Assembly (NCBI RefSeq): GCF_000024325.1
Contig: NC_013223.1
Span: 2,547,001-2,611,000 of the forward strand
Source: Desulfohalobium retbaense DSM 5692
GTDB taxonomy: Bacteria; Desulfobacterota; Desulfovibrionia; Desulfovibrionales; Desulfohalobiaceae
Length of the DNA: 64,000 nucleotides
Reading direction: 5' to 3'
Made by a program: the position numbers and the translations under genes. How positions within the stretch are numbered: position 1 is the first letter of the stretch; each line of letters starts with the position of its first letter. Positions 2,226 to 59,937 of this stretch are shown here, piece after piece. The notes beneath the pieces were generated by a model, which worked only from the letters and a program-made list of their open reading frames with translations, was not told the DNA's origin and ran no database searches.

Positions 2226-3107
2226 ATGTCCAGTGAACAATTGCTCAAACTCGGTATCCCCAAAGGATCGTTGCAGGACGCAACCATTAACCTTTTTGCC
2301 AAATCCGGCTGGAAAATCGGCCTGCACCACCGCAACTATTTCCCGGACATCAATGATGAGACCATGAAATGCTCCTTGTGCCGGGCCCAGGAAATGGCGG
2401 TCTATGTCGAGGACGGCACCCTTGATGTCGGCCTGACGGGCAAGGACTGGATCCTGGAAAACGAATCCGACGTGGTGGTCGTCTCCGACCTGGTCTACTC
2501 CAAGGTCAGCAACCGTCCGGCGCGCTGGATCCTGGCCGTATCAAACGAGTCCCCGTATAAACGCCCCGAGGACCTGGCGGGCAAGAAAATCTCCACCGAA
2601 CTGGAGAATTTCACCCGGAAATATTTCGAACAGGCCGGCATCCCTGTGGAAGTCGAATTCTCCTGGGGGGCCACGGAAGCCAAGGTGGTCGAAGGCTTGT
2701 GCGACGCCATCGTGGAGGTCACCGAGACCGGGACCACCATTCGCGCCCACGGCTTGCGGATCATCGCGGAATTGTTGCAGACCAACACCCAGCTCATTGC
2801 CAACAAGGCCGCTTGGGAAGACCCTTGGAAGCGGGCCAAGATCGAACAGATGAACACCTTGCTGCAAGGAGCATTGCGGGCCGAAAAACTGGTCGGTCTG
2901 AAAATGAACGTTCCCCATGACCGCGTGGACACGGTCATGGAATTATTGCCCAGCCTCAACGCCCCGACCGTGGCCCATCTGCACAACAGCGACTGGACCT
3001 CGGTGGAAATCGTGGTTGAGGAAAGCGTGGTCCGGGACCTGATCCCTCAGCTCCAGGCCCAGGGCGCCGAGGGCATCATCGAATATCCTTTGAACAAGGT
3101 TATTTAA
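2226..3107 (+). CDS. hisG: ATP phosphoribosyltransferase, long (HisG_L) form
   Basis: First and feedback-regulated step of histidine synthesis (ATP + PRPP to phosphoribosyl-ATP). The 293-residue length means the long form, which carries its own C-terminal ACT-like regulatory domain and needs no HisZ. The N-terminal catalytic domains show [16 protein letters not shown] and the PRPP-binding stretch [17 protein letters not shown]. The regulatory domain occupies roughly the last 75 residues. The start at 2226 is 1 nt after the hisI stop. An upstream in-frame extension inside hisI is possible but lacks homology. A dispersed repeat (3110-3253) begins only 2 bp after the stop codon. Confidence 0.96.
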
Positions 3108-3109
3108 CT

Positions 3110-3253
3110 GACTGTTGAAAAATTCCTTATCGTGCAGGTCGTTCAAACATCCCAAAAGACGGCGGCAAAACGTTCAAGGTCGCAGCGTACTGAGCCGTAC
3201 GTACAAGGCTGAACATTTTGCGCCTATCTGTCATTGGGAGATTTTCAACGGCC
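3110..3253 (+). repeat. Dispersed intergenic repeat, copy A (about 144 bp)
   Basis: It begins TGACTGTTGAAAA directly after the hisG stop and ends TTTTCAACGGCC. The outer ends are inverted relative to each other (GTTGAAAA / TTTTCAAC). An inner pair, GCAAAACGTTCAAGGT and AAGGCTGAACATTTTGC, is also inverted, so the transcript could fold into a nested hairpin. An inverted copy with long shared blocks (for example AAAACGTTCAAGGTCGCAG) lies at 47921-48062. It shows no coding potential. The rest of the gap to 3453 holds only the probable promoter and ribosome site of the next gene. Confidence 0.8.
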
Positions 3254-3452
3254 TGGTAACTGTTCACGACGCTGCCTTCGCGGCCCGGAAACCTTCCCGC
3301 ACCGCCGACCACGGCCGGCGGTGCGGGTGGATGAAAGGGTGCCGGTCGCTTTGTGTTGTCGGAAGCGGGGGTATAGGGTAGACGAGTCAGGGCGAGAAAC
3401 GTCCACACGTGTGGTCGCCGGGATTTGACCCAAGCTTTCCAGGGGAGAGGGT

Positions 3453-12847: not shown

Positions 12848-12866
12848 GGCGTATCCTTCAAGAGCT

Positions 12867-12960
12867 GACTGTTGAAAACCATCTTCTGATGCAGGCTGGC
12901 CCCGAAAAGCGAAAGAGGACGCAAAAGCGTTGAGATCAACGCGAGCGACCTGCACACCAA
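12867..12960 (+). repeat. Partial copy C of the dispersed intergenic repeat
   Basis: Starts with the same end TGACTGTTGAAAA as copy A and keeps recognisable similarity for about 25 bp (...GATGCAGG against ...CGTGCAGG). It then diverges, with only loosely similar blocks (GCAAAAGCGTT). It lies in the 220-bp gap between the acyl-ACP thioesterase and pyk, in the probable 5' leader of pyk. The right boundary is approximate. Confidence 0.5.
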
Positions 12961-13067
12961 CGATTGCTCGTGTGCCTGCTTGCCCCTAGTGGGAAATGTC
13001 CCCAGCTGAAAGAGGCCAAAGGGTGTTTGGGGCCCTGTTATCTGACCTAAAGCCTACAGACTTCTCA

Positions 13068-17193: not shown

Positions 17194-17208
17194 ATCGGAA
17201 CAGAGGAA

Positions 17209-17222
17209 TTTTTCAACAGTCA
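17209..17222 (-). repeat. End of the dispersed repeat (copy D, terminus only)
   Basis: Minus strand TGACTGTTGAAAAA, identical to the first 14 bases of copy A, starting 1 bp after the stop codon of the DUF6544 gene. The rest of the element is not recognisable here. Confidence 0.55.
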
Positions 17223-17223
17223 G

Positions 17224-18072
17224 TCAGGAAAAGGTGTACCGCAATTCGGTCAGTTCGCCGCGCCAATACGGGTGCTCGCCCTGCTCCAACTGCCAGAGGA
17301 CCTCCCCGGCCAGCGGGATCCGCAGGCCGTCGCGTTGGGCATAGTTCCACCACCGTCCCAGCCAGGGAGTCGGCACAACCTCCCGCCCCTTGGCCCGCCC
17401 CCGGTCCGGGGCCCAGACCGAATCCACTTCGCCGCCGGGGGCGAAGGAAAAAAGGAGGCTCACGGTATGGGGCCCGTCCTTGAGCGTGGCCCAGGCCGAT
17501 TGCGCGTCCTCCGGCTCCCATTGCACGCCCTGGCTGGGCAACAGGGCGGTCGGGTAAAGCGGCGCTTCGGCCAGATAGCGCATCAATTCGTCCCGGCCAA
17601 TGGCCCCACGTCCGCGGAGTTGCACCACATTCAGCAACCCGTACAACGAGGCCTGGAGAAGGCCCTCCCCGGCGACATACGCATCCCGGACCCGAACGAT
17701 CAGGCCCGGCAACAGCGAGATCCGGGCATCCCAATCAAAGCCCGGGCGTTTGATTTCCACCCGCTGGGTGGCCGCGAAAGGGCGCCACCATTGCCCCTGG
17801 GCCCGCATGTTCATGGTCCCCTTTTGTTCCAGGCGCACCGCAGCCACCAACGGCTGTCCCTCGCCCAGGACATGGCGAAAATACCGGACTACAGGGGTCG
17901 GAAGACCAGCGAGTTCCCCCGAATCAAAACGGGAGGGGCCGCCACTGACTCGGGCCGCTTCGAGCTTGATGCGTGTGGCTTTGGTCGCCGAATGCCACCG
18001 GGCCGAAGCAAAAACCAACACGGTTGCCAGAACCAGAACACAGGCGAGAAAAACGAAGAAAAACAGGGACAT
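17224..18072 (-). CDS. DUF6544 family protein with N-terminal membrane anchor
   Basis: 282 aa, function unknown. One N-terminal hydrophobic helix (SLFFFVFLACVLVLATVLVFA) is followed by a soluble domain. Family features include PVVRYFRHVLGEGQPL, WWRPFAATQRV, PGFDWDARI, ALLPSQGVQWEP and a late GEVLWQLEQGEHPYWRG. ATG 18072 is preferred over GTG 18084 because GAGG lies 6 nt upstream. It is the last gene of the hydrogenase operon, 21 bp after the maturation protease. Most relatives known to me are not tied to hydrogenases, so its presence here may be incidental or may indicate a membrane partner. The operon terminator follows. Confidence 0.8.
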   Translation of the reverse strand: MSLFFFVFLACVLVLATVLVFASARWHSATKATRIKLEAARVSGGPSRFDSGELAGLPTPVVRYFRHVLGEGQPLVAAVRLEQKGTMNMRAQGQWWRPFAATQRVEIKRPGFDWDARISLLPGLIVRVRDAYVAGEGLLQASLYGLLNVVQLRGRGAIGRDELMRYLAEAPLYPTALLPSQGVQWEPEDAQSAWATLKDGPHTVSLLFSFAPGGEVDSVWAPDRGRAKGREVVPTPWLGRWWNYAQRDGLRIPLAGEVLWQLEQGEHPYWRGELTELRYTFS

Positions 18073-18093
18073 CACATACCTCACCCCGAACAG

Positions 18094-44606: not shown

Positions 44607-44822
44607 AAACGCTTTCAAAACACCACCCCGGCTCTCTGGCTGCCTGTTACATCACCTTCTCTCGCAGCCCATTCAAAACCCCCTGAAGACGCCGGAAACA
44701 CGTGCCTAAGGGAGTTTTCCCCTGCAATTGCCTTTCGCTTGGGGGCAGGAAGCGATTGCACTCAAATACCGCTTGACGTGCCTTGGGAGAGGTTCCGCGG
44801 CCCTGCCAACGATTCCGGCGGC

Positions 44823-46268: not shown

Positions 46269-47918
46269 GTGAGCAAAGGAGCAGCCCCCATCGCCGCCAA
46301 AGTACGAGGTTCCACGTCAGGGCTCAAGCCCAGCCAGCTCAAAAAGCTCCAACGTCTCGCCCAGCGCCGGTATCCAAGCCAGGGGGGACTCAGCCGCGAA
46401 CAGGTCCGCGAAGTCGCCGGTTTGACCCACGAGGTCGGCCGCCAATTGGGGTTGTTGATCGACCGCCAAGGCCGGCTGGAAATGGTCGTCGTCGGCGAGC
46501 CCGGACGCATCGTCATTCCCGAACTCGGCCGGCAGCGGCAACATTCCGGGCGCTTGCGCGGTTTACGGTTGGTCCACACCCATCTGGGCCAGGAAGGGCT
46601 CTCTGAGGAAGACCTCATGGATATGGTCTTCCTGCGCCTGGACTCCATCACGGTTCTGGAGGTCGATTCGCACGGCACCCCCGGGCACATGCAATGGGCC
46701 CACCTTCTGCCGGCCAACGCCGACGCCAAACCCTACACCGTTTCCAAACGGCAACCGTGGGACCGGGTGGACATCGACTTCAACGCCCAGGCCGAAGCCC
46801 TGGAAGAGGAGTTGGCCCGGCGCCAGGAAGGCATCGCTTTACAAGCCCGGGAAAACACCACGCTTCTGGTCAGTGTCGGCACCAAGCCCAGGGCCCGTCT
46901 GGAGGCCGAACTCGACGAACTGGACGATTTGGCCCAGACCGCCGGTCTCCATGTGGCCGGACGACTGGTCCAACGAGTGGCCCGCCTGAATCCGAAATTC
47001 ATCCTCGGTCGCGGCAAACTTGCCGAACTCGAAGTCAAAGCGCTCCAGGCCAACGCCGGAATCATCATCTTCGACGGAGAACTCAGCCCCAGCCAGATGC
47101 GCAACCTGGCCCAGGTCACCGAACGCAAGGTCCTGGACCGCACCCAACTCATCCTGGACATTTTCGCCCAGCACGCCACCAGCCGTGCCGGCAAACTCCA
47201 GGTGGAAATGGCCCAGCTCAAATACACCTTGCCGCGCTTGGTGGGACAAAACAGGGCCCTGAGTCGCCTGGCCGGCGGCATCGGGGGTCGGGGACCGGGG
47301 GAAACGAAACTCGAACTGGACCGGCGCAAAGTCCGCGAACGGATCACCCGCATCCGCAAGGAACTGGACAAGGTCCGCAAACACCGCGCTCACACCCGCT
47401 CCCGTCGCTCCGACGCCGGCGTGCCCATTGTCGCCCTGGTGGGCTACACCAACGCCGGCAAGTCCACCCTGCTCAACACCATCACCCACAGCCAGGTTGT
47501 GGCCGAGGACAAGCTCTTCGCCACCCTGGACCCCACCAGCCGCCGCATCCGCTTTCCCCAGGATCGCGAAGTGGTCCTCACAGATACGGTTGGATTTATC
47601 CGCGAGTTGCCCGAAGACCTGCGCGAAGCCTTCCTGGCCACCCTGGAAGAACTCGAAGAGGCCGATGTCCTGATCCAGGTCGCCGACGCCGGTCACCCGG
47701 AACTCGAAGAACAGGTCGCTGCCGTGGACGCCATTCTCCAGGACATGGGCCTCGAGGACATCCCCCGTCTGCTGGCGCTGAACAAATGGGACACCCTGGA
47801 ACCTGAGGCCCGCCAGCGCGTCCTGAATATCTTTCCCCACGGCCTGCCGACCACCGCTCTGGACAAAGGCGGCCTCGAGGATCTGGTCCAAGCCATACTC
47901 AAACGGCTTCCGGCCTAG
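46269..47918 (+). CDS. hflX: Ribosome-splitting GTPase HflX
   Basis: 549 aa, a long HflX with about 190 extra N-terminal residues. The core has the HflX domain (ENTTLLVSVG...LDELDDLAQTAG, NPKFILGRGKLAEL, GPGETKLELDRR) and the GTPase domain: G1 GYTNAGKST, G3 DTVGFIREL, G4 NKWD. It binds the 50S E-site and dissociates stalled 70S ribosomes. GTG start at 46269, 9 bp after purH, with no strong ribosome site, suggesting translational coupling. An inverted copy of the dispersed repeat starts 2 bp after its stop. Confidence 0.94.
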   Translation: MSKGAAPIAAKVRGSTSGLKPSQLKKLQRLAQRRYPSQGGLSREQVREVAGLTHEVGRQLGLLIDRQGRLEMVVVGEPGRIVIPELGRQRQHSGRLRGLRLVHTHLGQEGLSEEDLMDMVFLRLDSITVLEVDSHGTPGHMQWAHLLPANADAKPYTVSKRQPWDRVDIDFNAQAEALEEELARRQEGIALQARENTTLLVSVGTKPRARLEAELDELDDLAQTAGLHVAGRLVQRVARLNPKFILGRGKLAELEVKALQANAGIIIFDGELSPSQMRNLAQVTERKVLDRTQLILDIFAQHATSRAGKLQVEMAQLKYTLPRLVGQNRALSRLAGGIGGRGPGETKLELDRRKVRERITRIRKELDKVRKHRAHTRSRRSDAGVPIVALVGYTNAGKSTLLNTITHSQVVAEDKLFATLDPTSRRIRFPQDREVVLTDTVGFIRELPEDLREAFLATLEELEEADVLIQVADAGHPELEEQVAAVDAILQDMGLEDIPRLLALNKWDTLEPEARQRVLNIFPHGLPTTALDKGGLEDLVQAILKRLPA

Positions 47919-47920
47919 CT

Positions 47921-48062
47921 GGCCGTTGAAAACCTCCCAATGGCTGACAGTTGCAAAACGTTCAAACTTGGACCTACGGACAAGTACCCTGCGACCTTGA
48001 ACGTTTTCGCGCCTCGTTCTTGGGATTTTTGAACGACCCGCATTATACAGGAAGCGTTCAAC
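47921..48062 (-). repeat. Dispersed intergenic repeat, copy B (inverted relative to copy A)
   Basis: Its reverse complement lines up with copy A (3110-3253) over nearly the whole length: shared blocks GTCGTTCAAA, AAAACGTTCAAGGTCGCAG, GTCC(A)-type centre, CATTGGGAG and TTTTCAACGGCC, by eye about three bases in four identical. It starts 2 bp after the hflX stop codon and contains the same nested inverted arms (CAAAACGTTCAA / TTGAACGTTTTCG). Confidence 0.8.
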
Positions 48063-48139
48063 ACTCAGCTTGCTGCCTGTTTCCCAGGCTGTGGCACCAC
48101 ACCGGCTCCACCCGTTCCCCTATTTTGCATGATGACGTC

Positions 48140-59718: not shown

Positions 59719-59798
59719 AAAACCATCCACTCCCGGGTACACATTCCCTGTGGCCCGGTCGCTTTACAGAAAGCATAATGATCTGCTAGCGTGAATCT

Positions 59799-59893
59799 TT
59801 CGCTAGGGGAGGGGAGTATATCCCCTGAGAGTCCCGACACCGATCGGGAGACCCTTGGAACCTGAACTGGGTAATACCTGCGCAGGGAAGCGA
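59799..59893 (+). ncRNA. TPP riboswitch aptamer (THI element)
   Basis: Conserved core in order: GGGGAG...CCCCTGAGAG, then GAGACCCTTGGAACCTGAAC, TGGGTAATACC, and GCGCAGGGAAGCG. The P1 helix pairs TTTCGCT (59798-59804) with AGCGA (59889-59893). It binds thiamine pyrophosphate and lies directly upstream of thiD. Confidence 0.95.
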
Positions 59894-59937
59894 GTCGACA
59901 CGTGAGTCAGACCCGGTGTCTGCCAAAACGCTGCCGT

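Follow-up and report, generated by a model that had tools for sequence, protein, structure and literature searches.

Among the MITEs described in bacteria, the nearest analogues of the repeat analyzed here are RUP of Streptococcus pneumoniae and Correia/NEMIS of Neisseria. According to the sections of PMC2229807 that treat these elements, they have in common with it a length of 100–200 bp, the lack of an encoded protein, terminal inverted repeats, TA termini, target duplication, a long hairpin, a mainly intergenic location, a copy number of ~100 (108 for RUP) and many stop codons. For RUP, the same sections give a proposed mobilization in trans by IS630-Spn1, an insertion sequence (IS) with the same ends (PMC2229807). 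The ERIC/IRU repeat of Enterobacteria, as characterized in that part of the paper, also resembles it, being a 127-bp intergenic repeat with TA ends and a hairpin, for which an effect on mRNA upon transcription is reported (PMC2229807). Likeness by description extends to the 'multicopy nucleotide sequences' of Geobacter and Pelobacter, which are dispersed and some of which are palindromic, as outlined in portions of PMC2700814, PMC2996986 and PMC3543383.

The repeat of Desulfohalobium retbaense DSM 5692 departs from RUP in that its ends are common to insertion sequences of the IS5/IS1182 type rather than IS630, and from both RUP and Correia/NEMIS in its 4-bp NTAN duplication, an asymmetric 27-nt left segment outside the hairpin, and a replication bias found in one host. 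Compared with ERIC/IRU, by description and not by sequence, it differs in showing neither RNA-level selection nor a conserved gene orientation. The IS elements of the families NF033581 (IS5) and NF033551 (IS1182) present the same 14–16 bp ends, C[AT]GNSYGTTGAAAA, within TA-centred flanks (L141, L142 and the IS of genome G074), whereas they measure ~1.35–1.5 kb and carry a transposase gene; the MITE was found to share only their ends. The repeat is very probably a non-coding MITE of ~149 bp whose movement depends, in trans, on an IS5/IS1182-type DDE transposase, as judged from sequence comparison. A mobile non-autonomous element was one option of the original prediction, and it agrees with what was observed: many copies, a 4-bp duplication, an empty site, near-identical copies in a relative, and ends shared with insertion sequences.

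The window, i.e., the whole stretch of DNA that was analyzed, comprises 64,000 nucleotides of the chromosome of D. retbaense, a halophilic sulfate reducer. A profile (R1) built from 38 D. retbaense copies, which include copies A and B of the window, detects five places at E ≤ 1e-3 (Table 1). The remaining rows of the search are two reverse-strand matches of the palindromes of A and B, and one match with an E value of 2.2. Copies A and B, predicted to align nearly end to end, are both full-length members of the family, with boundaries slightly shifted from those first proposed. A partial copy placed at 12867 corresponds to a decayed element, and the isolated end was recovered by the profile. 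Copy A is 74–85% identical to the 39 other copies. The elements had been thought to begin 1–2 bp after stop codons; the abutment is real, but the distance is 0, the elements standing directly against the stops. Profile matches agree with the names given to the adjacent genes, hisG, hflX and DUF6544. The HisG_C-term profile (1–100 of 100) covers residues 255–355 of 355 in the protein beside copy A, and the HflX profile (2–350 of 351) covers residues 198–546 of 549 in that beside copy B; since both profiles reach the last or nearly last residue, each protein has an intact C-terminus. At the Rfam gathering score the repeat has no match, and the only match in the window is a TPP riboswitch (59795–59905, plus strand, 74.2 bits).

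Table 1. Coordinates of the repeat copies, their flanks and an adjacent gene in the window.
Feature	Position	Strand	Evidence or remark
Target site left of copy A, TTAA	3104–3107	+	3105–3107 is the hisG stop codon TAA; sequence, translation
Copy A of the putative MITE, full length (CTGACTGTTGAAAA ... TTTTCAACGGCCTG)	3108–3255	+	R1, 171.9 bits over 3104–3261
Left terminal segment L1 of copy A, 27 nt, outside the hairpin	3108–3134	+	Consensus fold
Long imperfect hairpin of copy A (L2 arm, loop, right end)	3135–3255	+	Consensus fold
Target site right of copy A, GTAA	3256–3259	+	3/4 bases as in the left copy
Decayed copy C	12861–13011	+	Strongly decayed; R1, 29.7 bits, E 5e-8
Isolated left end	17202–17227	-	R1, 18.3 bits, E 1.4e-4; directly after the TGA stop of the DUF6544 gene
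DUF6544 gene with TGA stop beside the isolated end	17224–18084	-	Sequence, profile match
Probable additional decayed copy	44636–44811	+	R1, 24.1 bits, E 2.5e-6; absent from the original prediction
Target site beside the right end of copy B, CTAG	47915–47918	.	47916–47918 is the hflX stop codon TAG
Copy B of the putative MITE, full length, inverted	47919–48068	-	R1, 144.7 bits over 47913–48072; right end adjoins hflX
Target site beside the left end of copy B, CAAG (element orientation)	48069–48072	.	3/4 bases as at the right end

The dispersed nature of the repeat is borne out by the whole genome of D. retbaense, in which its matches lie well beyond chance. At least 40 copies were found by blastn at E ≤ 1.2e-19 (40 of 102 candidates were scored), and the search with R1 gave at least 146 matches at E ≤ 0.01, which correspond to at least 116 distinct places (150 of 744 candidates were scored). 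At least 90 of these places hold full-length elements (≥140 bp). RNAalifold assigns only 3 pairs to the 38 copies, and R1 is therefore nearly a pure sequence profile. The repeat has no match in the plasmid collection or in the phage collection. Two clusters were seen on the chromosome. One is a head-to-tail array of ~5 element copies (G000:C1:495245-496007; L280, 653–1377; G000 is D. retbaense) with a period of 151 bp and 91% matches, in which every copy has the same orientation; the other groups full and partial copies, also in the same orientation, in less than 600 bp (G000:C1:813260-813852; L281).

The element, of ~149 bp, starts with the left end CTGACTGTTGAAAA within an unfolded left segment of 27 nt, followed by an imperfect hairpin of 122 nt with TTTTCAACGGCCTG at its end. 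Terminal inverted repeats are present (CTGACTGTTGAAAA / CAGGCCGTTGAAAA, alignment A1), and NTAN stands outside each end. The left end (L1) contains TGA in two frames and, together with the NTAA or NTAG of the duplication, provides stops in all three, while the right end with the same kind of flank provides them in two of three. The nested inverted arms noticed earlier are reflected in the fold of the D. retbaense consensus (-54 kcal/mol, z = -4.9), and the consensus hairpin of G009, a complete genome from another family of the same order, reaches z = -6.5. Individually, 22 of the 38 D. retbaense copies fold with z below -2 against simple shuffles, and a long hairpin of like form, starting at approximately nt 27–30, was found in the 16 elements folded. 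In two further genomes (L068 in G046, L059 in G059) the interior of the element is broken by other sequence that contains GCACTCACTT-like inverted repeats, which gives the impression that the hairpin has received an insertion of a second short repeat. A minimal element of ~50 bp (L151, G396:C24:13792-13844) is bounded by TA-centred sites and contains little beyond its two inverted ends.

The flanks of the copies carry the mark of insertion. In 38 D. retbaense copies (two partial matches, L018 and L028, were left out of the 40), 103 of the 152 bases of the 4-bp flanks match between the two sides, against a mean of 69–70 in shuffles; none of 10,000 permutations of the right flanks among the copies gave a value as high. 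Perfect 4-bp duplications flank 8 of the 38, with 1.7 expected. The signal is specific for this length, with z = 7.3 for 4 bp and values of -0.2 to 1.1 for lengths of 2, 3, 5, 6, 8 and 9. In G009, where 40 copies were scored and 30 examined, 16 of the 30 share at least 98.6% identity with the consensus. A perfect 4-bp duplication flanks 14 of these 16 near-identical copies and 19 of all 30; the imperfect ones among the near-identical copies retain three (L071) and two (L078) of the four bases. The copies of D. retbaense are old and decaying, and the family jumped recently in its relative G009.

A site without the element was found by searching the joined flanks of three G009 copies (L072, L076 and L085) in seven genomes of the same genus. 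Two genomes have an empty L072 site, G039 (86% over 303 aligned positions) and G019 (88% over 203), and neither has an element at the matching locus. Both empty loci read CCCCGTAAGC, and G009 has GTAA-element-GTAA. In all three genomes the upstream gene ends in this TAA, its stop codon, which is intact with and without the element, so that insertion into the stop codon leaves the protein unchanged. The L076 site in G019, which reads CCAA with no element, is no more than suggestive of a second case, as only ten bases align on the left. The flanks of L085 gave separate alignments, none spanning the site. These sites belong to G009 copies, the 61 genomes searched including no second genome of the taxonomic family of D. 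retbaense.

A stop codon stands directly against 12 of the 40 D. retbaense copies (10 TAA/TAG and 2 TGA) and 10 of the 30 in G009, including two with identical flanks (L087 and L095). None of the 40 copies in D. retbaense or the 30 in G009 spans a predicted gene, with the genes predicted by a home-made codon-usage script rather than taken from curated annotation, and two predicted starts reaching into the element. In the window, 29 of the 212 TA sites in noncoding sequence plus stop codons (13.7%) are within stop codons. Against this background the 10 of 40 copies at such codons are only a mild excess (p = 0.04), and much of the stop-codon effect is expected from the TA target together with the loss of insertions in genes. 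The copies thus adjoin stop codons because TAA and TAG contain the TA target and the ends carry stop codons. An insertion at or just behind the stop codon would spare the protein, with TA held in TAA/TAG and all frames stopped by the left end, and would survive, and insertions within genes would be lost. Survival, i.e., selection, more than targeting probably makes the stop codons so prominent.

Alternative readings that assign the repeat a role in RNA, or a different mode of transposition, have to be set against these data. A structured RNA element (a 3' mRNA stabilizer, destabilizer or terminator, ERIC-like) retained after stop codons for its function would account for the long hairpin of the consensus and for the location of 33 of the 40 D. 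retbaense copies behind at least one gene end, and nine subfamily representatives show pair-keeping changes on both sides in 10 of 34 predicted pairs, as counted without a shuffled control. Within D. retbaense, however, no covariation was detected in 49 pairs (81.9% of cells paired vs 82.2% in shuffles), and a covariation score as high was obtained in 499 of 500 shuffles. Relative to codirectional genes, the element mostly faces one way in D. retbaense (19 vs 7) and the other way in G009 (3 vs 13), and 7 of the 40 D. retbaense copies lie between divergent genes. Moreover, the target duplications and the empty site show that insertion itself places the copies. A function in RNA is consequently improbable, and the 3' mRNA stabilizer offered by the original prediction is not upheld as a reason for the placement, given the unconserved gene orientation and the lack of compensatory change within the genome. 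That prediction had also looked to additional copies, to their position relative to genes and to compensatory changes in the arms, with a mixed outcome: many further copies exist and 0 of 40 span genes, but the paired changes appear between subfamilies only. Active master elements seem to preserve the palindrome and resident copies to lose it gradually, a pattern that points to a role in the life of the element rather than in that of the host. The palindromic, dispersed, mostly intergenic and, in one genome, fork-biased character of the repeat also recalls a REP/BIME element moved by RAYT, a Y1 tyrosine transposase, via single-stranded DNA; a REP/BIME-like element had been considered at the outset. 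This origin is highly improbable: the unit is of 149 bp and not a palindrome of 20–40 bp, its ends are common to DDE insertion sequences, and the clear 4-bp target duplication and the empty site contradict it, HuH/Y1 elements not being known to leave a target duplication.

In the preferred reading of a MITE mobilized in trans, the transposase would recognize the ends C[AT]GNSYGTTGAAAA inside NTAN, insert at NTAN and duplicate those 4 bp. Of 395 genomes sampled from the phylum, 90 contain the end pattern TANCWGNSYGTTGAAAA, with up to 67 matches in one genome, and 41 contain it at least three times. A reversed control pattern occurs once each in 14 genomes, and single matches of the end pattern may hence be due to chance. 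Autonomous-type elements with the MITE ends were found in other families of the phylum (L141, L142 and the IS of G074). In G328 and G383, IS units of ~1.35 kb (1,358 bp with the flanking TAN) have CAGGCTGTTGAAAAAC at both ends and a transposase inside. The two transposases match the IS5 family NF033581 at 4e-85 and 3e-88, above the cut-off, with IS1182 second and below its cut-off; that of G383 also matches Pfam DUF772 and DDE_Tnp_1. Each of the two units retains 3 of 4 duplicated bases. The complete genome G074 contains 17 DUF772 matches, and the end CAGCCCGTTGAA.. is present at 14 of the 17 loci with at most three mismatches. Its IS is ~1.5 kb long, with an opposite end readable in 8 of 9 copies examined, some with changes, and a transposase that is IS1182/IS5-like but scores below both family cut-offs. 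A perfect 4-bp duplication, judged by eye, flanks one of the 8 copies with both ends readable (L196). Two MITE-like elements of G074 share the end variant CAGCCC with this IS, suggesting that the IS and the MITE vary together.

The corresponding search in the genomes rich in the repeat gave a different picture. D. retbaense has an IS1182-family IS in three copies of ~1.56 kb (L184, L188 and L191), the one scanned scoring 322.7 bits, above the cut-off. Its duplications are of 4 bp (TTAA, TCAA and CTAA), and its ends, GAGNCTGTTGTAAAAC, appear related to those of the MITE but are different. No transposase with MITE-matching ends was found in D. retbaense, where the search covered the IS1182 copies and possible relatives of the L142 transposase, or in G009, which has no match to PF01609 or PF05598 at E ≤ 0.001. 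Of 101 genomes of the order, four have a relative of the L142 transposase, with D. retbaense and G009 not among them; of these four, G048 gave no MITE match and G438 no match to the end pattern. Likewise, a PF01609-based IS search of 20 loci in seven genomes yielded no IS bearing MITE ends. Some candidates were discarded: the ends at L107 are those of a neighbouring MITE copy and not of an IS, L108 has one lone end-like match, and an inward-facing pair of ends 1.87 kb apart in G009 (L121) encloses no transposase among its ORFs, as inspected by eye. Nineteen further G009 stretches are copies, decayed copies or lone ends. As neither D. retbaense nor G009 yielded a transposase with matching ends, we infer, from the ends, that the partner of the D. 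retbaense copies would be of the IS5/IS1182 type.

The orientation of insertion sequences is reportedly the subject of a study by Gomez from 2014, cited in PMC5371812 and PMC4549789. The GC skew of the fetched D. retbaense loci is positive from 0 to 1.4 Mb, apart from one slightly negative value among 18, and turns negative beyond. In 74 of 98 places (p = 4e-7) the left-to-right strand of the element runs against the replication fork. The minus-to-plus counts in the two chromosome halves are 37:9 and 14:34 (Fisher p = 6e-7). These orientation counts use 103 or 98 places from the list of 146 matches, with clusters collapsed and without the matches from rank 104 on, which were largely weak fragments or hits to the palindrome on the reverse strand; the bias was spotted post hoc in the list of copies and was not a prior hypothesis. 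In the 40 copies the lean is the same for every gene context (codirectional, 13:6 and 5:2; divergent, 6:1; convergent, 4:2), and gene strand therefore does not explain it. The places also gather around the terminus, 76 of 109 falling in the half of the chromosome closest to it (p = 5e-5). In G009, 25 of 40 copies are oriented against the fork, which is not significant (recent copies, 8 of 16; old copies, 17 of 24), with an origin and terminus made uncertain by a noisy GC skew from 2.3 to 3.65 Mb. The bias is absent from G028 and G043 (6 of 14 and 3 of 8, 9 of 22 in all), whose origins and termini were placed with 20 skew samples each, and some of whose 22 places may be one insertion present in both.

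Such an arrangement might be expected of polar chromosome landmarks, of which KOPS and AIMS are named examples, retained for an orientation that indicates where the terminus lies. The lean against the fork in all gene contexts and the enrichment near the terminus are compatible with that role, and the higher fraction in the old copies of G009 would fit selection, but with p = 0.06. Nevertheless, the bias is nearly the same at all levels of divergence (23 of 32, 25 of 33 and 26 of 33 from the best to the weakest scores), it is not significant in G009, and G028 and G043 show none, which makes a landmark function quite improbable. An insertion bias tied to replication is simpler, as known for Tn7/TnsE, with its orientation bias and terminus preference, and for several IS families with an orientation bias and beta-clamp binding, according to the passages of PMC5371812 on these elements. 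We favour such an insertion bias and suggest, with less certainty than for the type of transposase or for selection at stop codons, that the D. retbaense bias arises from insertion coupled to the fork. By analogy with those systems, the repeat could tentatively be viewed as a MITE family with insertions coupled to replication, whose stop-codon-reconstituting target would fill gene ends without damage, a view that is somewhat less likely than not.

The family is widespread in the order, with blastn matches in 29 of 61 genomes (D. retbaense included) and 8 of 18 genera. In named genomes, the right-end pattern of the D. retbaense subfamily gave 53 stretches, all from MAGs, in a list that perhaps lacks D. 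retbaense itself. The MAGs are labelled Desulfonatronum, Desulfonatronovibrio, Desulfonatronospira, Desulfonatronaceae, Desulfohalobiaceae or Desulfovibrionales, taxa that we take to belong to the Desulfovibrionales. No description of this MITE family was found among the titles and abstract openings retrieved from the literature by words or by sequence string. The element is of an ordinary kind, a MITE, in a family for which no description was found, and its special traits are the reconstitution of stop codons at NTAN and the replication bias in one host. A repeat family that 29 of the 61 searched genomes contain thereby gains a probable origin, a link to IS5/IS1182-type transposases, and a simple reason for the occurrence of mobile repeats exactly on stop codons. 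If insertion is indeed coupled to replication, the old copies would constitute a record of replication direction, and the orientation bias would offer a testable case of replication-tied transposition for a non-autonomous element.
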